Positions 1 through 32,020 of a stretch of DNA of 64,000 nt are shown one piece after another. A model generated the notes under the pieces. It searched no databases, was not told where the DNA came from, and saw only the letters and a program-made list of their open reading frames with translations. Both the position numbers and the translations under genes were made by a program. This DNA is from Candidatus Hydrogenedentota bacterium. Its GTDB lineage: Bacteria; Hydrogenedentota; Hydrogenedentia; Hydrogenedentales; JAEUWI01. Each line of letters starts with the position of its first letter. Within the stretch, counting starts at the first letter, position 1. The DNA lies in assembly GCA_016791475.1 (NCBI GenBank), contig JAEUWI010000047.1:1-64000 (forward strand). Direction: 5' to 3'.

Positions 1-73
1 GGAAAGCCGGATGCGGGAAATCTGCACGTCCGGTTTGACGAGGGGGTGGGGCTACGGCCCCACCCTACTCTAC
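1..73 (+). mobile_element. 3' end of a group II intron (domains V and VI)
   Basis: Positions 3-37 fold like intron domain V: AGCCGGA pairs with TCCGGTT through the catalytic AGC/GUU pairing, with a GAAA tetraloop at 17-20 and a small bulge on the 3' side. Positions 46-63 form the next hairpin, GTGGGGC / GCCCCAC, as expected for domain VI. The following CCCTACTCTAC ends in AC, matching the AY 3' end of group II introns. The rest of the intron, including any reverse transcriptase/maturase gene, would lie left of the window. The subclass cannot be assigned from this fragment. Confidence 0.7.
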
Positions 74-17188: not shown

Positions 17189-20100
17189 TCACGTCTTTAA
17201 AAGTCCAGTAAATGACGCAACAAGAAGCGTGGTTAAGACCCACCCGGCAGTAATCTGAAACCGCTGCCAAAGCCAAAGCCCCTGCCATTCAGTCCACCAT
17301 ATCGAAGCCCAATTCCTCACACCCGGCCATTTCCATTCCAACAGCCACTTCCACTGCCAAGGTGGAAGATTGCCACTTGCAGGTATCCAGTATGTGCTCT
17401 GCTGGAGGTCAATAATGGGCAGGAAGAGGTCGATAGAATAGACGAGCGAATTGTATCGGGGATAATATCGCGGAGACCCGCTCTTCAAAGAGTCCTCAAA
17501 CGCTTGAGGGTCACTTGGCACCATTCTCCCCTTTTGGTGTCCAAATGAGAATATTAAAAGTCCAATCGCACATACCAACAAAGACCACCCCACGGAATTC
17601 CAAGGTTTATAGCCATAGGCGATAGCGCGATAAAGGAAACTGTCCCAAACCTTTCTGTACCACGATGAAGGTTGCCGACTTTGTTCTCGCTCTCGCTCAA
17701 TTCGGACTTCACGTGCCTCTGAAGCCTGCCCTGTTTTCTCCAGGACCTCTGCAAGCTGTGTATATGGGCCCGGTTGAAAGCTCCCGTTGAGCTGTCCTCC
17801 TTTGAGCCAATGTAGCCTGCTTGCGACATCTCGTGGAGAGCTGCTTGCAATTCTATCATAAGAGAATTCTCCGAGGTCATACTTGCTGCAAACGGCCCAG
17901 CTTTCCATATCGTCACTCAATGTTCCGATGGACATATGTTGAAGGTCCAAGCTGAAATCATTGCGATCTCCACTCCTGCCCACGGAAAATATGAAGTGCT
18001 TTCTTACTACCGAGGCGAGTAGACTTACGTGGCCTTGGAACGAGGCATCTTTCCCAACAACCATGGACCCGTCAATTGTAGTCATTTCGGCACTGAGAGC
18101 TCTCCCATGAGGGTTGCTCAGATCGGCTTGCGATATTTTCACATCGCCGCCAACCGTTGCTGCGTTCAAGTCCACTTGTCCTTTCGATGAAAATCCGCCG
18201 ATCAACAGAACCTCTCTACCAATATTCGCCCCTCCGACGTTCAATGCATGCCCTGATGGGTTGTCGAGAATTGCTCCGCCGCACTCAACATTTACCGCTA
18301 TATTCGCCGCGAGAAATCGGACTTCACCCTCGGCATGAAATCCATCGATTAAGAATAAGGCTCCTCCGATTGTTGCGCTATCTGCTGCAAGGGCGGTGCC
18401 TCCTGGATTACTTAGCATAGCCCCAGGGCAAGCTAGGCTGCCATCAATTTTTGTTCCGTTTAGAGCGACCTCTCCTTTGGCCTGAAACCCCTTATTTAGG
18501 AACACCCAACCTTTCACTACGACCCCATTGGCACTCAATGCACGACTCCCGGAGTTATTTAGCGCAGCACTTCCGAACTCCAGATTCGCCCCAATCTCGG
18601 CATGGTTCAGACGGATCTCCCCATTACATGTGAATCCATTGTTTAGAAATACTGTGTCGCCTGCGTACAACCTGTCCCCGTCGATCGCGCAACCATTCGG
18701 AGCATCAATGTGAGCTCCACTACAATCAACTTTTCCACCTATCCGCGCATTCCGAAGTCGAACCTGTCCTTTCGCGGTAAAGCCTTTGCTGAGAACCAAA
18801 TTTCCGGCCACCGTGGCGGATTCTGCGAGGAGCGAAAAGCCAGCAGAATTTTCAAGCGCAGAACCGAGGCACTCGAAATTCCCATCAATAGTAGCCCCGA
18901 AGAACCTGACCTCACCTTCGGCCCTAAATCCCTTCCGAAAGAAAACAGAACCGGAAACTGTTGAGCCTTCAACCACCAGAGCGAAACCGCCGGGATTGCG
19001 AAGCGTAGAGTCCATGCATTCGATATTGGACCCCACTTCTACGTTTGAAAGGATTATTGCGCCATCAACAAGCGAACGGTTCTTAATCGTGAAGGCCCCT
19101 TTTATATCCGCGCGCTCTGCGTTGAGTGCCTTACCATTCTTGCTGCTCATTGTTGCCGAGCTGCATTCCAAATTCCCTCCGATAGCCGCACCATGTAAGC
19201 GAATTGATCCCTCTGAAAGGAAGTTCTCCTTGAAGAATACACTTCCCGCTACCTCCAAGTTGTCGGCAACAATCGCATTCTCTTTTTCAGTTTTGAAGCT
19301 GGCTCCATCACAGTAGAGATTGCCACCGACTTTCGTACCGAGGAGCCTTACTTCCCCGTCTGCAACTATTCCATCGAAAAGCAAACTCGATCCGATTGTT
19401 GCCCCCTCCGCATCAAGCGCTCTACCCTCACTGTTTTTCAAAGTTGCCCCAGCGCAATTGAGGAAATTGCCCATTACTGTCCTTACCAACTGGACTTCGC
19501 CGTCCGCGGTAAAGCCAGCGTTCAGGAGTACAAGACCCTGAATCCTTGCCCCAGGAGCGCTTAACGCCTTACCGTTGGCGTTCGTCAATGAAGCGCCGGT
19601 GCAGCGCAACGAGCCGCCGATTTCCGCAGTAGCAAAGTCTACGGAACCGTTTGCAGCAAAGCCACTGTCTAAGAATACGCTACCTTTGATAGTCGCCTGA
19701 ACCGCTTTCAAAGCTTCCTTGTTGCGGTTGCTTAGTGCTGTTCCAGTGCATACAAGATCACTGCCCAAACTGACGCCATCCAAATTTAGGTTCGCTTTTC
19801 CGTCTGCTATGGTGTCTACCTCGGGTGATTTGTTCTGATCGAGCTTTGCGTTATTGTCGCTTGGAGGGTGCTCTCCCGAAAACCTGAATGTTGATCGAAT
19901 TGCCTCCAGCCTGTTTCCTATATACGCACCTACAAAGCGAACTTCACCATCGGCGTTGACGCCATTCAGAAAAGCGGCTCCCGCAATATTAGCCCGGTCT
20001 GCATTAAGGGCGAAGCCGGCAGGGTTACAGAATACGGATCCATCGCACATTAGGTCACCACCAATTCTTGACGCGCCAAGACAGACCTCACCTTTTGCGG

Positions 20101-20671
20101 CGAAGCCTCGATTCAGTTGAAGACTGTCTCGAATGGTAGTGCCTACTACCTTTAATGAGAGATTTGTTCCGGGTATCGGGCCGACATGCGACCCGGAAAG
20201 CGCTACTATTCTCAGGTCCGCGCTTGTTAAATCTACTCCTTCTGGAATTGAGCATGAGAGAATTACCACTGGAAAAGGCACGTTTGAGAAGGCCAGATTT
20301 AATGTCCCCTGAATTTGCGCTCCCTGAACTTGCACACCATGACGGGTAACCAGTTTGATGGCAGCAGGGTCGGTAAGAAGCCACTCCAAATGTTTCGCTG
20401 ATAGTGTGTCGCTCGTACTCCAATTCGAGTCAGTAGAGGTTGCGCTTAGCTGTTCCCCGGTCCGATTGCTAAAGACCGCCATCTGGCTCTTCTCGACCTT
20501 ACTGATGAGTTTCCGAAAAGGATGGTTAGAATCCAGCGAACCAAACTCATTTTCAGCAAGTTGAACTAAAGGCGACAATTCTTTCATCGATTGAGTGTCC
20601 TCTGCAAAGCCGTTAGGTATGGATACGGTGACGAGACCAAGAAGGAAGACAACAGTTGCCGCTATACGCAT
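17189..20671 (-). CDS. Large repeat protein with signal peptide and C-terminal membrane anchor
   Basis: 1160 residues. A signal peptide (MRIAATVVFLLGLVTVSIPNG) is followed by a variable region. From about residue 190 to 900 come about fifteen imperfect repeats of 48-49 residues. Their core is [AS]-[DEK]-G-E-V-R-L-x-G-A-x-I-G-G-x-L-x-C-x-G-A, then N-x-x-G-x-A-L-x-A. These resemble pentapeptide/beta-helix-like repeats in actinobacterial and cyanobacterial proteins often mis-named membrane oxidoreductases. The last ~150 residues hold two membrane helices (WSLLVCAIGLLIFSF and WVLTTLLVASFTGLL) and a Trp-rich stretch between them. GAGAGG precedes the ATG. It is AT-richer than its neighbours and bracketed by inverted repeats, suggesting transfer. 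No catalytic motif; probably a long rod-like surface or periplasmic structure. Confidence 0.75.
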   Translation of the reverse strand: MRIAATVVFLLGLVTVSIPNGFAEDTQSMKELSPLVQLAENEFGSLDSNHPFRKLISKVEKSQMAVFSNRTGEQLSATSTDSNWSTSDTLSAKHLEWLLTDPAAIKLVTRHGVQVQGAQIQGTLNLAFSNVPFPVVILSCSIPEGVDLTSADLRIVALSGSHVGPIPGTNLSLKVVGTTIRDSLQLNRGFAAKGEVCLGASRIGGDLMCDGSVFCNPAGFALNADRANIAGAAFLNGVNADGEVRFVGAYIGNRLEAIRSTFRFSGEHPPSDNNAKLDQNKSPEVDTIADGKANLNLDGVSLGSDLVCTGTALSNRNKEALKAVQATIKGSVFLDSGFAANGSVDFATAEIGGSLRCTGASLTNANGKALSAPGARIQGLVLLNAGFTADGEVQLVRTVMGNFLNCAGATLKNSEGRALDAEGATIGSSLLFDGIVADGEVRLLGTKVGGNLYCDGASFKTEKENAIVADNLEVAGSVFFKENFLSEGSIRLHGAAIGGNLECSSATMSSKNGKALNAERADIKGAFTIKNRSLVDGAIILSNVEVGSNIECMDSTLRNPGGFALVVEGSTVSGSVFFRKGFRAEGEVRFFGATIDGNFECLGSALENSAGFSLLAESATVAGNLVLSKGFTAKGQVRLRNARIGGKVDCSGAHIDAPNGCAIDGDRLYAGDTVFLNNGFTCNGEIRLNHAEIGANLEFGSAALNNSGSRALSANGVVVKGWVFLNKGFQAKGEVALNGTKIDGSLACPGAMLSNPGGTALAADSATIGGALFLIDGFHAEGEVRFLAANIAVNVECGGAILDNPSGHALNVGGANIGREVLLIGGFSSKGQVDLNAATVGGDVKISQADLSNPHGRALSAEMTTIDGSMVVGKDASFQGHVSLLASVVRKHFIFSVGRSGDRNDFSLDLQHMSIGTLSDDMESWAVCSKYDLGEFSYDRIASSSPRDVASRLHWLKGGQLNGSFQPGPYTQLAEVLEKTGQASEAREVRIEREREQSRQPSSWYRKVWDSFLYRAIAYGYKPWNSVGWSLLVCAIGLLIFSFGHQKGRMVPSDPQAFEDSLKSGSPRYYPRYNSLVYSIDLFLPIIDLQQSTYWIPASGNLPPWQWKWLLEWKWPGVRNWASIWWTEWQGLWLWQRFQITAGWVLTTLLVASFTGLLKT

Positions 20672-21422: not shown

Positions 21423-21665
21423 AGGGTTTGGCGTCCTTCGGTTTTCCCCCGTCGCGCCGGAGGCGCAATGCAGGCGGAGACGCCTGTCCGTCGCGGCGCA
21501 TCTCCGACGCTCCCAGCCTTGCCGGGTTCCGATTCGAGCGCCAACGGGGGTTAGGCATTCCTGCCTGACCGGACGCCCGCTTGAGGCTGGAGATAACTTT
21601 TTTTATTGCGCATGTCGTTGGTCGTGAAAGGACGGTGAAGGGCCTGTCGGCGGCAAGCGCGTGCT

Positions 21666-22065
21666 TTGTGTCAGGCAGGAATGCCTAACCCCCTTTGGAC
21701 CGCCTTAACAAGGGAAGTTCGTATACGCGGCGTGGTGCCGTTGGAGGACTTGGGCGTGCTTTGTGTCAGGCAGGAATGCCTAACCCCCTTTGGCCCGCCT
21801 TCATGAGGGAAGTTCGTATATTCGGCGTGGTGCCGTTGGAGGACTTGGGCTTGCTTTGTGTCAGGCAGGAATGCCTAACCCCCTTTGGCCCGCCTTCATA
21901 AGGGAAGTTCGTATACGCGGCGTGGTGCCGTTGGAGGACTTGGGCTTGCTTTTTGTCAGGCAGGAATGCCTAACCCCCTTTGGCCCGCCTTCATAAGGGA
22001 AGTTCGTATATGCGGCGTGGTGCCGTTGGAGGACTTGGGCGGGCTTTGCCGCAGACAGGAATGAC
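21666..22065 (+). repeat. Tandem array of a 95-bp unit (four full copies plus a decayed fifth)
   Basis: TCAGGCAGGAATGCCTAACC recurs at 21671, 21766, 21861 and 21956, exactly 95 bases apart. A diverged copy (GCAGACAGGAATGACTGC) falls in phase at 22051. Each unit holds the palindromic core AGGCAGGAATGCCT and the shared phrase GGCGTGGTGCCGTTGGAGGA. Full units differ at only a few positions. An inverted copy of the core lies at 21547-21573. Open frames in the array are by-products of the repeat. Confidence 0.9.
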
Positions 22066-22111
22066 TGCGCCCCTCGGGCCGACGATACGCCGAGGGGCTC
22101 AACAACAAAAC

Positions 22112-22140
22112 GCGGCCCCGGAGGCATCCTCCGGGGCCGC
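22112..22140 (-). terminator. Rho-independent terminator after the transketolase gene
   Basis: A perfect 13-bp GC-rich stem (GCGGCCCCGGAGG with its complement) and a 3-nt loop. On the minus strand it is followed by GTTTTGTTGTT. It lies 26 bases past the transketolase stop. Confidence 0.88.
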
Positions 22141-24064: not shown

Positions 24065-24436
24065 GGGTTCTCCTTTGTTTCCATGGCCGGGACTGCCCAG
24101 GCAGGGCGGCTCGCCGGTTGAGTCCAGACTTCGAATGTTGGGAAGGGCGTATGCGGCGCGGCCCCGGCGTAACGCCCGATCACGTTACGGTGGCCCTCAG
24201 CACCCGGCGGAATGGCGGGACGGGCTTGAGGACCGTGCCAGCAAGACGAGGCAGTATAGCAGAGCCCCGCAGGCAGTTGACAATTGACCGCTTACAATGG
24301 ACAGCGAGAGGACGGATAAGTCGGACGGGTCCGATATAATGTATCGGTCCTATCGGCCCCAACGTGGTCCATTGTCCATTGTCAATTGCCAATTTGGATC
24401 TGTACAATGGCCCCTTGTCTCGATGAGGAGTATCAA
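24065..24436. other. Divergent intergenic region with repeats, between transketolase and the PP2C gene
   Basis: 372 bases. An imperfect inverted repeat joins about 24278-24304 (TTGACAATTGACCGC...) to 24367-24390 (GTCCATTGTCCATTGTCAAT). Inside it, 24310-24325 shares 16 bases with the terminator region at 60556-60571 in inverted orientation, and a palindrome GGTCCGATA...TATCGGTCC surrounds a TATAAT at 24335-24340. No -35 box sits at the right distance, so a promoter is not claimed. Confidence 0.45.
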
Positions 24437-26131
24437 GTGCTTCGGGGATTTCTCATAGTCGATGCTGACGGGCGCAAAGTGCCGGTCGACGATTCTCTGG
24501 TCATTGGCCGCACGGCGGACAGCGGCCTGATGATCGACGACAATGCGGCGTCGCGTCGTCACATGGAAATCAAGGCCCGACCGGACCGGTTTATCTGGAA
24601 GGATCTGGGCAGCACCAACGGCACGATCCTCAATGGGGCGAAAATGCTGGCGGGCGAGCTGAAGAACGGGGACAAGATCCAGATCGGCGAGACGACCCTC
24701 TCTTTCGTGGTGACGGGGCATGCGGAAAGCCGCGACGGCGCACCGGAACCCATCGTGGAAGAGGGGCGCCTGTTCACGGAAACCATCATGGATCATCAGG
24801 GGATGGTGAAGAAGCCCCATGAGGGCCCGTCCAAGACCACCAAGCTTCTGGAAGCGGTCTATTCCGTGGCCAACGAGATTGCCACGAACTACGACACCTG
24901 CAGCCTGATGGACGGGGTGCTCAAGAAGACCTTGAAGGCCATCAACGCCCAGCGCGGCGCCATTTTCCTCGCGAGTCTGGATGCCGAGCTCCTGCCCTGC
25001 TCCGAATGCGGTTTTGTGCACAGCATCGCCAACGGGCAACTGCGCCCGGCCCAGATCGGCGATATTCTCATCAGCAGCACGGTGGCCAGCCGCGTGATCC
25101 GCGACGGCGAGAGCGTGCTGTATCAGGATACCGACAGCGACATGGAGTTGAATGCTTCCGAGAGCATCATGTCGCTCCAGTTGCGTTCCATCATCTGCGT
25201 GCCGCTCCGCGCGAAGCACGGCATTCTGGGCATCCTGTATATCGACACGGATCGCCAGGATCAGAATTATTCTCATGACGACCTGCTGCTCGCGGCCTCG
25301 GTGGGCAACAGTGCGGGTTTGGCGCTGGAAAATGCCCAGATGCACCAGCAGATCCTGGAAAAACAGCGGATCGAGCAGGATCTGGCCACGGCCTGGACCA
25401 TCCAGGAAGGCTTCCTGGTCAAGGAATGGCCGAACGACCCCCGATTCGAGGTCTATGGCGAGACGCGGCCCGCAAAGACCGTGGGGGGCGATTTCTACGA
25501 CTATGTGCGGCGCGGGCGCGACAGCGTGGGCATTCTCATTGGCGATGTGAGCGGGAAGGGCGTGCCCGCGGCGCTGACCATGGCCCAGTTGCTGGCGCAA
25601 TTTCGCCTGCTCTGCCGCGATCTGGAAAGTCCCCTGGAAGTGCTGCGGGAATTGAATCGCGGCCTGGTGAAGCGGAGCCAGCGGGGCATGTTCTGCACGA
25701 TGTGCTATCTTATGATCGATTTAAACACCGGGCACGTGGTCTGCTGCAACGCGGGCCACCATCCCGTGGTCCAGATCGGGCGAAACGGCGTAACGACCTT
25801 TGGCGACGCCACGGGCCCGCCGGCGGGTATTTTGCCCGAGGGGCCCTGGGTGGAGACGCGCTCCATGATCGCGCCGGGGGACAGCCTGCTGCTGTACACC
25901 GATGGCATCGTGGAGGCCCGGTCTACGACGACCCTGCTGGAGGGGGCGACGCCATCGCCTCCGGTGGAGTACGAAGAGGAAGGATTGCGCCGGTGCACGG
26001 GGCGCCTTTACGGCGAATCGGCCCAGGCGCTCATCGAAGCGGTCATCTACGATGTGCAGCGTTTTACGGCGCCCGCCGCGCCCCACGACGACTGCACGAT
26101 GATGGCGATGAGGTATATCGGTGCACGATAA
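24437..26131 (+). CDS. FHA-GAF-PP2C serine phosphatase (RsbU/SpoIIE type)
   Basis: 564 residues from the GTG at 24437, six bases after GAGGAG. An ATG at 24407 and the frame start at 24386 lack such a site. An FHA domain (1-95) has VIGRTADSG, SRRHMEI and GSTNGT. A GAF domain (~140-300) has LRSIICVPLRAKHGILGILYIDT. The PP2C domain (~340-560) has KTVGGDFYDY, GDVSGKGVPAAL and LLYTDGIVEARS with metal-binding aspartates intact. It would dephosphorylate a STAS antagonist in response to signals sensed by FHA and GAF. The next genes are its kinase and a STAS partner, so this is a complete partner-switching module, continuing into the Mla operon. Confidence 0.9.
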   Translation: MLRGFLIVDADGRKVPVDDSLVIGRTADSGLMIDDNAASRRHMEIKARPDRFIWKDLGSTNGTILNGAKMLAGELKNGDKIQIGETTLSFVVTGHAESRDGAPEPIVEEGRLFTETIMDHQGMVKKPHEGPSKTTKLLEAVYSVANEIATNYDTCSLMDGVLKKTLKAINAQRGAIFLASLDAELLPCSECGFVHSIANGQLRPAQIGDILISSTVASRVIRDGESVLYQDTDSDMELNASESIMSLQLRSIICVPLRAKHGILGILYIDTDRQDQNYSHDDLLLAASVGNSAGLALENAQMHQQILEKQRIEQDLATAWTIQEGFLVKEWPNDPRFEVYGETRPAKTVGGDFYDYVRRGRDSVGILIGDVSGKGVPAALTMAQLLAQFRLLCRDLESPLEVLRELNRGLVKRSQRGMFCTMCYLMIDLNTGHVVCCNAGHHPVVQIGRNGVTTFGDATGPPAGILPEGPWVETRSMIAPGDSLLLYTDGIVEARSTTTLLEGATPSPPVEYEEEGLRRCTGRLYGESAQALIEAVIYDVQRFTAPAAPHDDCTMMAMRYIGAR

Positions 26132-26546
26132 AGACCTGTCCATAGTATTCCGGTCCTCCCCGAAACTCCTGTGCGATGTCCGGGCCATGATCCGCAGTTA
26201 TCTCATCAACCAGGGGGTCCAGGACGACAAAGTGCAGGAATTGGTGCTGGCGGTGGACGAAGCCTGCACCAACGCCATCCGCCACGCCTACCGGGGCGCT
26301 CCGGACCAGTTTCTGGAACTTTCCATGGATTCGCGGGATGGATGGATAGAACTGGTGGTGCATGACGACGGGATTCCCGCGCCCTACGACCGGGTGCGGC
26401 GCAAGTCGGAGGAGGATATACTGGCGGAGGCGTTGACCCCCGGGGGGCTGGGGATGCATCTCATTTATAACGTCTTTGACGACGTGGAGTTTATGCCGGG
26501 CGATGGTCAGGGCAATACCATCGTAATGCGGCTGCGGAAAGTGTAA
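26121..26546 (+). CDS. RsbW/SpoIIAB-type anti-sigma factor serine kinase
   Basis: 141 residues starting with GTG, overlapping the phosphatase gene by 11 bases. The GHKL ATPase fold is clear: the N-box VDEACTNAIRHAYRG with Glu47 and Asn51, then HDDGIPAP (G1 box) and GGLGMHLIYNVFDD (G2 box). In known systems this kinase phosphorylates a STAS antagonist and binds a sigma factor or other client. No sigma factor gene is nearby, so the client may be the next gene's STAS protein in a non-sigma role. Confidence 0.9.
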   Translation: MHDKDLSIVFRSSPKLLCDVRAMIRSYLINQGVQDDKVQELVLAVDEACTNAIRHAYRGAPDQFLELSMDSRDGWIELVVHDDGIPAPYDRVRRKSEEDILAEALTPGGLGMHLIYNVFDDVEFMPGDGQGNTIVMRLRKV

Positions 26547-26648
26547 CATGAGGGGGGAATTTTACTCGGGATCATCCGCCACGGCCGGCGGCGGGAGCGT
26601 ATGGGAGCTTGCCCGCCCGGCGGTGGAGATACATAAAGGTCTAATCGC

Positions 26649-26963
26649 ATGGCACTTGAGTTGAAACAGGTGGAGCAGGACGGCAACTGCATCGTGGAGG
26701 CGAAGGGCGAGATCGATCTGTATTCGTCGCCCCAGCTTCGCGAGGCAATTCTGAAGGCCTGCAAGAGCACCAAGCAGAAGGTGGGCGTCCGCCTGACGGA
26801 CGTGGCCTATATGGACTCCTCCGGCGTGGCCACGCTGGTGGAGGGCCTGCAGGCGGCGGGCGGCGCGGCGTCTTTCCTGCTGCTGGCGCCTTCTCAATCG
26901 GTCATGAAAGTTCTCCAGCTTTCCCGCCTGGATTCCGTGTTCAGCATCGTGGAGCAGATGTAA
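26649..26963 (+). CDS. STAS-domain protein: anti-sigma antagonist or MlaB-like subunit
   Basis: 104 residues, all one STAS domain. The switch site is YMDSSGVATLVEGLQ, with Ser57 and Ser58 in the DSSG motif that the kinase phosphorylates in SpoIIAA/RsbV. AAGG precedes the ATG. It lies between the kinase gene and mlaE, only six bases before mlaE. In E. coli the STAS protein MlaB binds the ATPase MlaF and activates the MlaFEDB transporter. The protein could be RsbV-like, MlaB-like or both; the phosphorylatable serine and the position support both roles. Confidence 0.88.
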   Translation: MALELKQVEQDGNCIVEAKGEIDLYSSPQLREAILKACKSTKQKVGVRLTDVAYMDSSGVATLVEGLQAAGGAASFLLLAPSQSVMKVLQLSRLDSVFSIVEQM

Positions 26964-26969
26964 CCGGCC

Positions 26970-27758
26970 ATGTCCGCCCTACTGGGACACACAGGCCGCG
27001 CCACGCTGAACGGCCTCTTTGCCGCGGCCACGGTCTGCGTGTTGATGGTGGACACCGTCAATTGGCTCCTGTGGCAGCCCCTGCGGGGCAAGGGCCTGCG
27101 CGTGCGGAGTACCGTGGAGCATTTCGTGGAGTTCGGCGTGCGCTCCCTGCCCATCGTGGGGCTCATCTGCGGGCTGATCGGCATCATCATGGCCCTGCAG
27201 GCGGCCTACACGCTGGAGAAGTGGGGGGCGACCCAGCTCATCGCCGATCTGGTGGGCATTTCGGCCCTGCGGGAGCTGGCGCCGCTCATGACCGCCATCC
27301 TGATTACCGGCCGCTGCGGCTCGGCGATCACGGCCGAAATCGGCACCATGAAGGTGTCCGAAGAGATCGATGCCCTCAACGTCATGGGTCTCAATCCCAC
27401 CAAGTTTCTGATCGTTCCCAAGTTCCTGGCCATGATGATCGCGGTGCCCTGCGTGACGGTGCTGGCCATGCTCATCATGATCCTGGGCGGCTTCTTTGCC
27501 GGCGTGGTGCTGGTGGGCGTGGACCCCGGCATCTACTTCCGCCAGACGGCCGAAGCCCTGACCCGCATGGATCTCGTCTCCGGCCTGGTCAAGAGTTTCT
27601 TCTTCGGCATTACCATCTGCTGGGTGGGCGTGTATCGCGGATTTCGCGTGGACGGCGGCGCCGAGGGCGTGGGCCGTGAAACCACCTCGTCCGTGGTGAC
27701 GTCCATTCTGATCATTATCGTCGTGGACCTGGTCTGGACGGCCCTGTTCTTCTCCTGA
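26970..27758 (+). CDS. mlaE: MlaE-type ABC transporter permease
   Basis: 262 residues with about six membrane segments and the MlaE signatures: VGLICGLIGIIMALQAAYTLEKWGA, PLMTAILITGRCGSAITAEIGTMKVSEEIDAL and the terminal GVGRETTSSVVTSILIIIVVDL. It is the inner-membrane permease of the Mla system, moving phospholipids between inner and outer membrane. It is followed after seven bases by the ATPase and preceded by a STAS gene. Complete. Confidence 0.95.
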   Translation: MSALLGHTGRATLNGLFAAATVCVLMVDTVNWLLWQPLRGKGLRVRSTVEHFVEFGVRSLPIVGLICGLIGIIMALQAAYTLEKWGATQLIADLVGISALRELAPLMTAILITGRCGSAITAEIGTMKVSEEIDALNVMGLNPTKFLIVPKFLAMMIAVPCVTVLAMLIMILGGFFAGVVLVGVDPGIYFRQTAEALTRMDLVSGLVKSFFFGITICWVGVYRGFRVDGGAEGVGRETTSSVVTSILIIIVVDLVWTALFFS

Positions 27759-27765
27759 GGACCCC

Positions 27766-28566
27766 ATGAGCGTCGAACCCGACAATATCATCGAAGTGCA
27801 CGATCTCCGCGTGAAATACGGCGATCGCACCGTGCTCGATGGCGTGAACCTCACCGTGAAGCGCGGCGAGGTCTTCGTCATACTCGGGGGATCCGGTTGC
27901 GGCAAGAGCACGCTGCTCAGGAATCTTGTGGGCCTGATGCGGCCCCATTCGGGGAAGATTCTGTTCAAGGGGCAGGATTTTACCGCCATGAACGACGAGG
28001 AGCGGGTGGAGGCGCGCAAGCAGATGGGCATGTGCTTCCAGGGTTCGGCCCTGTTCAATTCCCTCACCATCGGCGAAAACGTGGCCCTGCCGCTCAAAGA
28101 GCACACGCGCCTTGAGTCGTCCACAATTGATATCATGACCAAGATCAAACTGGAGTTGGTGGGTCTGGGTGGTTTCGAGCGATTCATGCCCTCGGAATTG
28201 AGCGGCGGCATGAAAAAGCGCGCGGGCCTGGCCCGGGCCATGGCGATGGATCCGGAGATCATCTTTTACGACGAGCCCTCCGCCGGCCTGGACCCCATCG
28301 TGGGCGCGGGCCTGGACATGCTCATCCGCAAGATGCAGAGCACCTTCAACCTGACCAGTGTGGTGGTGACCCACGAGATGGAGAGCGTGAAACTCATTGC
28401 CGATCGTGTGGTCATGCTTGACAAGGGCAAGGTCATCGGCCTGGGCACGCTGGAAGAAATACAGAGAATCGATCACCCTTTTATTGAACAGTTTTTCGCG
28501 CGACGACCCGATGCGGAAGGCGAAGACACGGCGAAGTACCTCCAGTCGCTCACGAGCACGGAGTAG
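27766..28566 (+). CDS. mlaF: MlaF-type ABC transporter ATPase
   Basis: 266 residues. Walker A is GGSGCGKST (41-49), the Q-loop is [22 protein letters not shown] (a hallmark of Mla ATPases), the signature is LSGGM, and Walker B is [13 protein letters not shown] followed by the H-loop THEM. It powers the MlaE permease. The C-terminal extension [16 protein letters not shown] resembles the E. coli MlaF tail that helps dimerise and contact MlaB. Confidence 0.95.
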
Positions 28567-28616
28567 CGGAAAGCGCCGTTGTCCGCGCGATCGAAATGAA
28601 GCGGAGCGAACAGGCT

Positions 28617-29858
28617 ATGGCCAGTAAGAAGTACAATTTCACCCGGACCGAGTTCACGGCGGGCCTGATGGTGATTGCCAGCGTGGCGGTGCTCGCGGGC
28701 TTCGTGGTGGTGATAGAGAATCTCCGCGCCGAGCCGGAATATAAGACGCTCTATGCGCGCTTTACCAGCACGGTGGGGCTGAACGCCAACGCGATGATCC
28801 GCTTCGGCGGCCTGGAAGTGGGCACGGTCGCATCGGTGACCTATGATCCGGAGGACCAGTCCCAGATCCTGCTGGAATTGAAAGTGGACCCCAAGACTCC
28901 GGTGAACGAATCGAGCCGGGCGACCATCGAGCAGACCACGCTCACCGCGGAGAAGCATCTGGAAATCTCCACGGGCACGAAAGATGCCGCGCTGGTTCCG
29001 GCGGGTGGCGATGTGCAGGTAATCAACAGCGGCTATGGTTTCATTGATATCCCCAATGTGGATGGTCTCGTGGGCGGCAGCGAAATGCTCATCGCGGATC
29101 TGCGCGATTTCATCGGCGTGGAAGCGGCCAAGAAGGGCGAGGCCGAGGGCAAGGGCGAGCTCGCCAGCATCGAGCGCCTTGCCGGCGATGTTCGCGCGCT
29201 GCTCGGTGTGCGGGAGGCCCTCGAGCGGCACAAGGCCGACGGCTCCGAGCCGATTAATGTGGCGAAACTCACCGAAGACCTCGCCAAGCTGCTCGGAGTG
29301 GAAGAGGCGGAGAAAGAAGCGGCGGCCGGGGGCGATCCCCTGCCCAGCGTCACGCGGATCACGGGGGATGTGCGCGATCTTCTCGGTGTGAAACAGGCGA
29401 AGGCGGAAGCGGTGGCGGGCGGCGCGGACCCGGCCAATGTGGAAAACATCATCGGCAATGTGGATGGCATGCTGGAGAAGTACGATCCCCAGATCGGGAC
29501 CATACTGGAGAAGGTTCCGCCGCTTCAGGATTCGGCGACCCGCGTGATGACGGGCGTGGCCACCACGCTGGAAGACAACAAGGAAAACATCGACAAGATC
29601 GCGACGGACGTGAGCGGTGTTACCGCCACGTTGAATCAGGAGTTGGAGAAAACCATTGCGGCGCTCACCGCCACGCTGGAACATGTCCAGTCGCTCAGCG
29701 GCGAGACCGAGGAGCTGGTGCACCAGAACCGGCCTGCGATTGAAGATCTGATGGGCGATCTGGGCCACCTGATACAGAATTTGAACGTGCTGCTGGAGGA
29801 CCTGAAGGCCCATCCGCAGGCGATAATCTTTGGCAAGCCCGAAAGCGGGCGGAAATAA
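28617..29858 (+). CDS. mlaD: MlaD/MCE-domain lipid transport protein with a 4 x 30-residue repeat
   Basis: 413 residues from the ATG at 28617 (GGAG upstream; an ATG at 28596 is less supported). A membrane anchor (~16-34) is followed by the MCE domain (~40-140): YKTLYARFTSTVGLNANAMIRFGGLEVGTVASV. From residue 161 to 280 come four exact 30-residue repeats, each opening with [DN]-[LV]-x-x-[LF]-[LI]-G-V. The last part is predicted coiled coil (ENKENIDKIATDVSGV...). MlaD forms hexameric rings in the periplasm that pass phospholipids. The repeat is unusual for MlaD and may extend the ring as a needle-like stalk. Confidence 0.9.
   Translation: MASKKYNFTRTEFTAGLMVIASVAVLAGFVVVIENLRAEPEYKTLYARFTSTVGLNANAMIRFGGLEVGTVASVTYDPEDQSQILLELKVDPKTPVNESSRATIEQTTLTAEKHLEISTGTKDAALVPAGGDVQVINSGYGFIDIPNVDGLVGGSEMLIADLRDFIGVEAAKKGEAEGKGELASIERLAGDVRALLGVREALERHKADGSEPINVAKLTEDLAKLLGVEEAEKEAAAGGDPLPSVTRITGDVRDLLGVKQAKAEAVAGGADPANVENIIGNVDGMLEKYDPQIGTILEKVPPLQDSATRVMTGVATTLEDNKENIDKIATDVSGVTATLNQELEKTIAALTATLEHVQSLSGETEELVHQNRPAIEDLMGDLGHLIQNLNVLLEDLKAHPQAIIFGKPESGRK
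29097..29456 (+). repeat. Four in-frame 90-bp (30-residue) repeats inside mlaD
   Basis: Units begin at residues 161, 191, 221 and 251. Starts are DLRDFIGV, DVRALLGV, DLAKLLGV and DVRDLLGV; each then has ~11 charged, alanine-rich residues and ends near a glycine or glutamate. Confidence 0.88.
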
Positions 29859-29938: not shown

Positions 29939-30505
29939 ATGAACGTCACTCACTTCAAGCATATTTGCCTCGCGCTGGCTGTGGTGGGCCTCGCGGCGGG
30001 TTGCGCCACGGCCCCCGGCCCCAATCTGTACACGCTGAACATGACCCCCGCGTCGGGAGACAGCGGCGGGGTCCAGATCGCCGTAGGTCGCCTGCGCATT
30101 TCGGAAGCGCTGCAGAACAAGCGTATCCTGATCAAGAAAAGCCCGACCGAGATTGAGTACTACGCGGCGGCGCAATGGGCCGCCGGACTCGATGAACTGC
30201 TCGCGGAGAAGCTCGGCGCGGAATTTGGTCAGCCGGACCCCGCTGGAGCCACCTGCGTGCTCTCCGGCACCTTGCTGGCCTTCGAGCAGATCGACGGGGC
30301 CACCGGGGCCGAGGCCCACGTGCGCTTCGCGGTCGAGATCCGCAAAGAGGGCACCAGCTACTATTCGCCGCCCGCGCTGGCGAAGACCTATGACGTGCGG
30401 CTGCCCGTGGCGGAGCCCACGGCGGGCGGCGTGGTGCGGTCCCTCTCCGAATGTCTGGAGCAAGTCGCGCGGGAAATCGTGGCGGACACGTCCGCCCTCG
30501 GATAA
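29939..30505 (+). CDS. PqiC/YmbA-like ABC-transport auxiliary lipoprotein
   Basis: 188 residues. A lipoprotein signal ends in LAAGC at residues 18-22. AGGAA sits 8 bases before the ATG. The mature part opens NLYTLNMTP, then VQIAVGRLRISEALQNKRILIKKSPTEIEYYAAAQWAAGLDELL, the pattern of the PqiC/DUF330 family. Such lipoproteins sit at the outer membrane and receive MCE-mediated lipid flow. It directly follows mlaD and belongs to the same operon. Confidence 0.85.
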   Translation: MNVTHFKHICLALAVVGLAAGCATAPGPNLYTLNMTPASGDSGGVQIAVGRLRISEALQNKRILIKKSPTEIEYYAAAQWAAGLDELLAEKLGAEFGQPDPAGATCVLSGTLLAFEQIDGATGAEAHVRFAVEIRKEGTSYYSPPALAKTYDVRLPVAEPTAGGVVRSLSECLEQVAREIVADTSALG

Positions 30506-30529: not shown

Positions 30530-31327
30530 ATGACGGCAAACGGCAAGCTGCAGGAACACCTCTCCGACTACGAGCGGGTCGTGTGTTACCACACCCTTCC
30601 GCGGACGAATCATCCGCTGACGCTGGGTCTTATCGTTGCCTATGCGGTTTGCCTGCTCGAGGCGGTGGCGGCGATTGGGGTGGGCGTGTATCTTGAACGC
30701 CCGAACTGGCTGCGTATAGGCTCCATTTGCTTTGTCGGCCTTATCCTCTTTGGCATCGTGGTCTTCACCATCCGCGCCTTTCTCAATGAGCTCCGCTCGC
30801 GCAAAGCGCTGGCGGCGGCGGAAGGCGTGCCCGACGCCCGGGAATCCGCCCAGGATTTTCCCGATCCCTTCGAAAGTCATATCCTCCTGCACCATCCCTC
30901 CCATACCCGGGGTACGCTGTTCAGCCTGACGGACAATCACGACACGAGCGGCTATATCGTGGAGATCGCGCCGAGCCATAAGGGCTGGAAGATACGCGAC
31001 ATGGAGTCGGGACATCAGATCCGCGTCCAGATGGAAAAGGGGGGGCGGAGCTTCCGCTTTGGCGGCGTTCTGCCGGCCGTGGCCCGGGTCTTCCGCGAGG
31101 GGGAGGAGGTGGCCATTCTCCGGCGCCCCTTCACCCTGAGCGATCTGGAGGTGCAGATTGAATCCACGCGACCTTCCGGCCCCGTGCTCCAGTTGCGAAA
31201 CAAAGGCTTTTTCGCCGATAATCGGCTGGTGGGCCGCGTGTATAACCTTCGGGGTTCCTGCTACCTCGATATCGATCAGGCCTATTTCAATGAGGGCGTG
31301 CTCGCCTATTTTGTGACGATGTCCTGA
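30530..31327 (+). CDS. Membrane protein of unknown function in the Mla operon
   Basis: 265 residues, with AGGGA at suitable spacing. Two helices near the N-terminus (about 30-55 and 65-85) are followed by a soluble C-terminal half of alternating strands (GYIVEIAPSHKGWKIRDMES, LEVQIESTRPSGPVLQLRNKG, LVGRVYNLRGSCYLDID). The strand pattern is faintly reminiscent of tubby/scramblase-like folds, but this is weak. Cotranscription with MCE genes suggests a role in envelope lipid handling. Confidence 0.55.
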   Translation: MTANGKLQEHLSDYERVVCYHTLPRTNHPLTLGLIVAYAVCLLEAVAAIGVGVYLERPNWLRIGSICFVGLILFGIVVFTIRAFLNELRSRKALAAAEGVPDARESAQDFPDPFESHILLHHPSHTRGTLFSLTDNHDTSGYIVEIAPSHKGWKIRDMESGHQIRVQMEKGGRSFRFGGVLPAVARVFREGEEVAILRRPFTLSDLEVQIESTRPSGPVLQLRNKGFFADNRLVGRVYNLRGSCYLDIDQAYFNEGVLAYFVTMS

Positions 31328-31417: not shown

Positions 31418-32020
31418 ATGAAATGTTCTTTTTTTCTTTCGATGATGGTCGCGGGCGCGGCGCTGCTGCTGTCCGCAACTCCCGCCAGCGCCGGCCTCGA
31501 TATGAAATCGGGCATGTGGCGCCTGGAATTGAACAACGACTTTGGCGTCCACCAGGGCAGCCAGGATCGCTCCGGCGACTACACGATTAACGGTATCGTG
31601 GAGTATGAGGTGCCCGCAACGCCCCGAACCACGCTCGGGTTGCGCATGATGCCTCTCTTCGTTTATTCCCAGGATGGGGACGACGACTACCGCCGCTTTC
31701 GGGAGATTTTCGAAGATGACAACGACGATGACGGCGACACGGTCTGGGGCGGCGGATTCGGGCTTGCCGGTCGTGTCTATCAGGTGAAGGACGAGTACCG
31801 CGGCTGGTACGGGGAGGCCAGTGTGAGCACCCTGATACACAGCAATGAGTTTAACGGGAACAACTCCAACATCAACTTTGTCACGGGCCTGGGCGTGGGC
31901 TATCAGTTCAAATCGGACTGGCACGTGCAACTCCACTATCAGCACATCTCCAATGCCAGCCTGGGCACGAAGAACTCCGGCGCCAATTCCCTGGGCATCG
32001 GCGTGGGCTACCGCTTCTAG
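31418..32020 (+). CDS. PagL-like lipid A 3-O-deacylase (acyloxyacyl hydrolase)
   Basis: 200 residues with a signal peptide (to about residue 25, ending PASA). The mature part forms an eight-stranded outer-membrane barrel. The last segment, HYQHISNASLGTKNSGANSL, carries the His-x-Ser pair (HIS) and the following Asn-Ser-Gly region of PagL active sites. The chain ends in Phe, typical of outer-membrane barrels. PagL removes the 3-O-acyl chain of lipid A and alters outer-leaflet properties. A long acidic insert (DDYRRFREIFEDDNDDDGD) is unusual. It closes the lipid-transport gene run. Confidence 0.78.
   Translation: MKCSFFLSMMVAGAALLLSATPASAGLDMKSGMWRLELNNDFGVHQGSQDRSGDYTINGIVEYEVPATPRTTLGLRMMPLFVYSQDGDDDYRRFREIFEDDNDDDGDTVWGGGFGLAGRVYQVKDEYRGWYGEASVSTLIHSNEFNGNNSNINFVTGLGVGYQFKSDWHVQLHYQHISNASLGTKNSGANSLGIGVGYRF

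Follow-up and report, generated by a model that had tools for sequence, protein, structure and literature searches.

A conserved partner-switching module in an MlaE-family transporter operon of Hydrogenedentota with a predicted role in gating lipid transport

The window, a stretch of 64,000 nucleotides from a contig (C47) that is part of the 7.7 Mb draft genome of a Hydrogenedentota bacterium, encodes a partner-switching module of phosphatase, kinase and STAS protein within the operon of an MlaE-family ATP-binding cassette (ABC) transporter. All operon genes are on the + strand. The first encodes an RsbU-like phosphatase (24437..26131) with FHA, GAF and PP2C/SpoIIE domains (Pfam FHA, GAF, SpoIIE). 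It is followed by an RsbW/SpoIIAB-like GHKL serine kinase (26121..26546; HATPase_c_2, 3.9e-29) and a STAS switch protein in the position of MlaB (26649..26963; TIGR00377, 75 bits, above cut-off). The transporter genes start with an MlaE-family permease (26970..27758; PF02405, 257 bits; TIGR00056, 253 bits, above cut-off) and an MlaF-like ATPase with a C-terminal extension (27766..28566) that matches ABC_tran and, by PDB sequence match, the MlaF-type ATPases of MlaFEDB entries. Open reading frames and Pfam/NCBIfam profiles bear out all five gene identities given in the initial annotation (FHA-GAF-PP2C phosphatase, GHKL kinase, DSSG-bearing STAS protein, mlaE and mlaF), and its six-base gap between the STAS gene and mlaE is exact. 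The genes had also been described as running directly into each other. This is the case for STAS, mlaE and mlaF, with 6 bp and 7 bp between them, but not for kinase and STAS, whose genes are separated by 102 bp. The end of the phosphatase gene (26131) overlaps the start of the kinase gene (GTG 26121) by 11 bp. The likelier start of the phosphatase is GTG 24437, with GAGGAG just upstream; an in-frame TTG lies further upstream at 24386.

The operon extends past 28566. The next gene encodes an MCE (MlaD-type) protein with a long C-terminal helical region (28596..29858; PF02470, 8.9e-16; Mtu_fam_mce and MlaD below cut-off), and is followed by an ABC_trans_aux lipoprotein (29939..30505; PF03886, 3.8e-13) found at the same place in Hydrogenedentota operons. 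Behind the lipoprotein gene, here as in most Hydrogenedentota operons, stands a conserved gene for a 265-aa protein (30530..31327). The protein likely carries N-terminal membrane helices. Searches of Pfam and PDB, also with a family of 12 members as query, found no match to it, and it is a candidate for a new component of the transporter. A PagL-like outer-membrane protein (31418..32020; PF09411, 1.8e-15), kept in several relatives, probably closes the conserved cluster.

An MlaE permease, an MlaF-like ATPase and an MCE protein are thus encoded in one operon, with TIGR00056, Pfam MlaD and ABC_tran matches above cut-off. By profile, the transporter belongs to the MlaE/MCE family, and its putative substrate and 'Mla' identity derive from that membership only. 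The window proteins stay below the NCBI equivalog cut-offs (MlaE 200/315, MlaF 221/441 and MlaD 61/135 bits), and a Pfam scan of the operon proteins found no MlaC. Phospholipid transport of the Mla kind is therefore assigned by analogy, and the name 'Mla' should be used with care for this operon, whose lipoprotein is Pqi-like. As in MlaFEDB of E. coli, a STAS gene is located beside MlaF and MlaE; unlike that system, the operon lacks MlaC and includes an added ABC_trans_aux lipoprotein. A mixture of Mla- and Pqi-type parts, as in the combination of MlaE/MlaF with this lipoprotein, also characterizes Mpc, a chimeric Mla-Pqi MCE transporter of Brucella, for which the accessible part of the source mentions no kinase module (PMC12436622).

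The host carries a second MlaE operon (L114, C4:24202-27737) that encodes a permease with a fused STAS domain, a short-tailed MlaF, an MCE protein and an auxiliary lipoprotein. It lies directly behind a DNA ligase gene and has no kinase nearby. A separate MlaB-like STAS gene elsewhere in the genome had been named as an argument against the module acting on the transporter. Such a gene is present in form only: the second MlaE bears its own fused STAS.

The motifs required for partner switching are intact. Numbered from TTG 24386, the phosphatase comprises FHA (39-101), GAF (174-316) and SpoIIE/PP2C (379-577) domains. The kinase possesses an N-box (E47/N51), a G1 box (D82/G84) and a G2 box (G109/G111), and the STAS protein a YMDSSG motif at residues 54-59 (D56-S57-S58-G59). 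We aligned these motifs in the window and 68 loci in which the kinase is linked to MlaE, giving 69 sequences and 60 phosphatases. The Glu and Asn of the kinase N-box are invariant (69/69) and the G boxes are conserved. The STAS motif DSSG is likewise invariant in 69/69, a set of 62 distinct sequences in which a few loci occur twice because they entered through two collections. This conservation corroborates the intact N-box and the switch serine motif noted initially. Five motif Asp residues of the PP2C domain are present in 60/60 phosphatases and a sixth in 58/60.

The predicted phospho-acceptor is Ser57, the first Ser of DSSG. Counting positions through TM1442 (DSAG, Ser59) and RsbV in PDB alignments leads to the first Ser after the Asp, the position of the acceptor in RsbV/SpoIIAA. 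Ser59 of TM1442 and the corresponding RsbV residue are established phosphosites. Ser58, the other serine put forward initially, was rejected as the acceptor by the same residue count, and fused paralogues keep the first Ser. In these paralogues, the fused STAS domains of MlaE proteins from the same phylum that have no kinase, the acceptor position is S/T in 20/21 and the second Ser occurs in 1/21. The difference in the second Ser (69/69 vs 1/21) is a correlate only.

The ATPase carries a feature that ties it to the STAS protein. MlaB of E. coli is clamped by a C-terminal extension of its partner MlaF (Tyr261, Leu265, Leu266; PMC7367683). The tail of the window MlaF contains Y258-x3-L262, corresponding to the 'handshake' formed by Tyr261 and Leu265 of E. 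coli MlaF. The Y-x3-L motif is found in 55/64 operons with kinase and STAS vs 5/96 operons without STAS, and a tail of at least 18 residues in 63/64 vs 19/96. In MlaB itself the place of Ser57 is taken by Thr52, which lies at the centre of its interface with MlaF (PMC7367683). Unlike MlaB, the window STAS protein scores as an anti-sigma antagonist; it does not match the NCBI MlaB model, and its only matches at E <= 0.001 are TIGR00377 and spore_II_AA. By position and by the MlaF tail the protein appears MlaB-like, yet it falls outside the MlaB model family.

The gene order is conserved across the phylum. Two independent searches of the same 100 genomes, one for the kinase and one for MlaE, were joined by coordinates. 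An MlaE of the window type occurs in 37 genomes, in the order that contains all the sampled Hydrogenedentota. The kinase is encoded 293-576 bp upstream of MlaE on the same strand in 36/37, an interval with room for just one STAS gene; in the 37th genome (G050), kinase and MlaE both lie at contig ends. Full loci read PP2C-kinase-STAS-MlaE-MlaF-MCE, usually followed by the lipoprotein and a gene of the 265-aa type. Two families (f10 and f11) have neither a window-type MlaE nor a close kinase, except for two weaker matches with other neighbours. Natural fusions join PP2C to kinase (L097 4854-6605, - strand) and kinase to STAS (L106 5169-5861, - strand), each directly before STAS or MlaE. In L106 the last part of the kinase domain is missing at the fusion point, which makes a small deletion likely there.

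The association reaches well beyond the phylum. A kinase-profile scan of named genomes provided 80 best relatives, and MlaE was present in the fetched stretch for 47/80. These MlaE-linked kinases come from Hydrogenedentota, Acidobacteriota, Nitrospirota, Verrucomicrobiota, KSB1, Calditrichota, Thermodesulfobacteriota and an Alteromonadaceae isolate (Gammaproteobacteria), as well as from single metagenome-assembled genomes (MAGs) labelled Rhodothermota, Actinomycetota and Myxococcota, on whose labels we do not rely. The commonest order across phyla is PP2C-KIN-STAS-MlaE-MlaF-MCE. Two Verrucomicrobiota loci instead read STAS-MlaE-MlaF-MCE-PP2C-KIN and the Alteromonadaceae locus KIN-STAS-MlaF-MlaE-MlaD-MlaC-PP2C, and in a Desulfobacteraceae MAG a divergently transcribed PP2C-kinase pair accompanies an mlaF-mlaE-mlaD-STAS-mlaC operon. 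MlaC was confirmed in the last two operons, both kinase-linked (L139, from Alteromonadaceae bacterium M269, and L166). Retention of the linkage despite rearrangement points to function rather than frozen ancestry, and chance adjacency of module and transporter genes is ruled out by the conservation. The rsbU-rsbW-STAS-mlaE-mlaF order, for which the initial annotation had suggested a survey of relatives, is conserved both within the phylum and, sometimes rearranged or divergent, in many phyla outside it.

A tree of 90 kinases, on which the nearest relative of the window kinase is that of locus L115, agrees with this. MlaE linkage requires 3 changes on the tree vs a mean of 23.8 when shuffled, and 0/500 shuffles were as low. 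In the family of the Alteromonadaceae isolate the kinase occurs in 6/148 genomes, in all 6 beside STAS, MlaF and MlaE. The same isolate also has a second, ordinary Mla operon with no kinase, whose MlaB reads DTAG. We further sampled 120 MlaE loci outside the phylum that were chosen only as high-scoring MlaE matches, blind to the kinase. A free STAS of the window kind lies beside MlaE in 7/120; six of the seven have a kinase and the seventh is at a contig end. Of the remainder, one has a fused STAS and 112 are without a detectable STAS, which may include divergent MlaB proteins missed by the profile; the kinase is found in 0/113. The sample agrees with the sparse distribution reported for MlaB (PMC10665443).

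Other branches of the kinase family have different surroundings. A sister group, mostly from Bacteroidota/Ignavibacteriota, is encoded in the order PP2C-STAS-kinase-PP2C with an SSAG motif in the STAS protein and no MlaE (L140, L145, L156, L161, L162, L169, L173, L177, L188, L190, L191). In Verrucomicrobiota, kinases of this family are also paired with PP2C in loci whose fetched stretch shows neither STAS nor MlaE (L137, L147, L151, L165, L184, L185, L193).

Structure prediction supports a complex between kinase and STAS protein. The two genes share one frame and were folded by AlphaFold2 as one chain with the stop codons read as Gly. The model has a mean pLDDT (per-residue confidence) of 86.7 and a pTM (predicted template modelling score) of 0.81. 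Since this value is reached although residues 145-174, the 30-residue linker, are disordered, the mutual placement of kinase and STAS appears confident; the artificial linker raises proximity, so the value is support rather than proof. The kinase part resembles SpoIIAB of the SpoIIAB-SpoIIAA complex (1th8_A, Z 19.4, root-mean-square deviation 2.5, 131 aligned residues), and the STAS part resembles RsbV (6m36_H, Z 17.3) and MlaB chains (Z 11-14). The ATPase part of a second model, the STAS-MlaE-MlaF proteins of L115 in a single chain, has its best matches among MlaF structures (7ch8_J, Z 34.1, 40% identity).

By computation, the genes and their order are defined and deeply conserved, the catalytic and acceptor residues are intact, MlaF has an MlaB-type tail, and a kinase-STAS complex is predicted with confidence. 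We consider it probable that the module forms a phospho-relay of the partner-switching kind, dedicated to the MlaE-family (MCE) lipid ABC transporter, with the STAS protein as MlaB-type subunit and transport gated by phosphorylation of Ser57. Unphosphorylated STAS would be docked against the helical face of MlaF, held there by the C-terminal extension of the ATPase, and would permit ATP hydrolysis and transport. The GHKL kinase would bind the same helix-alpha2 face of STAS and phosphorylate Ser57, whereupon STAS would leave MlaF and the transporter would be switched off. The FHA-GAF-PP2C phosphatase would remove the phosphate and turn transport on again. FHA and GAF are likely input domains, and could respond to a phosphothreonine partner and a small ligand, respectively.

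Several steps of this scheme are modelled on homologues, namely the action of kinase and phosphatase on Ser57, the competition of kinase and MlaF for a single face, the direction of the effect and the lipid substrate. The helical face of MlaB binds MlaF with Thr52 at its centre, and T52E weakens the binding (PMC7367683). SpoIIAB binds SpoIIAA and lets go after phosphorylation of a conserved serine (PMC8256260). If both sets of findings hold here, kinase and MlaF compete for one face of STAS, the kinase acting as the off switch and the PP2C phosphatase as the on switch. Control of MlaB by phosphorylation has been called an open possibility (PMC7367683, PMC5016091). The initial annotation had claimed that kinase and phosphatase gate phospholipid transport through the STAS protein. 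Its regulatory half is supported by gene order, motifs, MlaF tail and kinase-STAS model; the phosphorylation and its effect on the ATPase are what we infer, and 'Mla phospholipid transport' applies by analogy only.

Five observations weigh against this scheme. A genome rated 100% complete (G029) keeps the PP2C-kinase-STAS trio (L110, C37:1640-4155) without a window-type MlaE, and the next gene there encodes a PilZ protein. Several operons have no PP2C in the fetched stretch. Further GHKL kinases and STAS proteins are encoded in the host genome and leave room for crosstalk. The single-chain STAS-MlaE-MlaF model of L115 reached a pTM of only 0.51 and does not confirm docking of STAS on MlaF; the chain contains no MlaF dimer, across which the tail acts in trans. 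The same low value indicates that a high pTM, such as that of the kinase-STAS chain, does not follow from joining the proteins alone. Finally, MlaB T52A keeps MlaF binding while ATPase activity is abolished (PMC5016091). The site therefore also has a structural role, and conservation of the acceptor alone proves nothing.

This last point bears on the idea that the STAS protein is a purely structural MlaB in a constitutive assembly, with kinase and phosphatase either vestigial or running a slow housekeeping cycle that has no regulatory output. E. coli MlaB works without a known kinase, and the structural importance of the acceptor residue fits this idea too (PMC5016091). Yet both enzymes retain their catalytic residues with hardly an exception across 60-69 sequences from many phyla, and where STAS is fused to the paralogous MlaE, the kinase is absent and the second Ser has been lost. 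We regard a constitutive assembly as unlikely.

The trio retained without MlaE in G029 is also what an ordinary anti-sigma switch could leave behind. The kinase would then hold an unlinked sigma factor, the STAS protein would free it, and the Mla-type genes would merely be co-transcribed or belong to the regulon. The best profile scores, to RsbW, SpoIIAB and ant_ant_sig models, are in line with such a switch, and the host genome has 44 Sigma70_r2 matches, whose proteins could be distant targets. However, none of the 44 is on contig C47, in agreement with the initial remark that no sigma factor gene is nearby. A SigBFG protein above the curated cut-off was found in 0/68 Hydrogenedentota genomes, so the question of a sigma factor for this kinase, raised earlier as a possible objection, came out in favour of the transporter as target. 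MlaE linkage persists over many phyla and several gene orders, and the STAS-gripping MlaF tail is specific to kinase-linked operons. We regard an anti-sigma switch as unlikely.

The STAS protein could also play a dual role, as an MlaB subunit that in addition frees the kinase for another partner. Occupancy of the transporter would then report the state of the envelope, and the transporter would be the sensor instead of the target. The kinases of known partner switches do have a second partner, and this kinase family has other members without MlaE or without a linked STAS. The operons, however, show no conserved second-partner gene, and the conserved input part is the PP2C phosphatase, often with sensor domains. 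A dual role is accordingly improbable too, and the preferred reading remains a phospho-relay that acts on the transporter.

The association of two known kinds of system is real and deeply conserved, and no earlier description of it was found in the open-access literature searched. A search of open-access full text, which does not extend to most subscription papers, found no paper with both MlaE and RsbW, nor one on Hydrogenedentota with Mla. The module resembles RsbU-RsbW-RsbV and SpoIIE-SpoIIAB-SpoIIAA of Bacillus in its three homologous components, intact motifs and predicted kinase-STAS complex; unlike these switches, it has no linked or right-type sigma factor and is built into an ABC lipid-transporter operon. 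SiaABCD of Pseudomonas aeruginosa is a near parallel in its logic, with a PP2C/kinase pair that sets the phosphorylation of an anti-sigma-antagonist-like protein and an enzyme rather than a sigma factor as output (PMC7647112, PMC8457831). That output is a diguanylate cyclase producing cyclic di-GMP, whereas the proposed output here is a membrane transporter, reached via a known subunit of its complex. SypA/SypE, BtrV/BtrW and other non-canonical STAS switches also combine STAS, kinase and phosphatase, and their target is something else than a known sigma factor (PMC8256260). None was seen with a lipid-transporter target; where the target field is given, it is biofilm or secretion.

We know of no kinase or phosphatase for MlaB. 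In many phyla, the kinase-linked operons offer a candidate for each beside the transporter, making the question of MlaB phosphorylation testable in vitro and in vivo. It also seems fairly likely, if a little less so than the gating in the window itself, that a widespread and ancient branch of MCE transporters is gated post-translationally, by a serine kinase of its own and a sensor phosphatase that together switch an MlaB-type STAS protein on and off the ATPase. If so, we know of no earlier partner switch with an ABC transporter as output, and the question of how MlaB is controlled would be answered for this branch. A signal could then rapidly halt the movement of lipids to or from the outer membrane, and the reach of partner switching would extend past transcription and cyclic di-GMP to membrane transport.

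Promoter and terminator scans gave counts close to chance expectation; a promoter-like site ahead of the phosphatase gene (24379-24408) has 10/12 matches, a level at which such sites are expected by chance. A tRNA scan of the window found none. A region at 21564-22133 consists of about six tandem copies of a 95-nt unit and is apparently non-coding. On the - strand, 17189-20671 encodes a 1160-aa protein with many imperfect repeats (GEV.L.GA.IGG.L.C.GA.L.N..G.AL) and a membrane C-terminus. The very start of the window (2-73, + strand) matches the catalytic core of a group II intron (RF00029, 50.6 bits).

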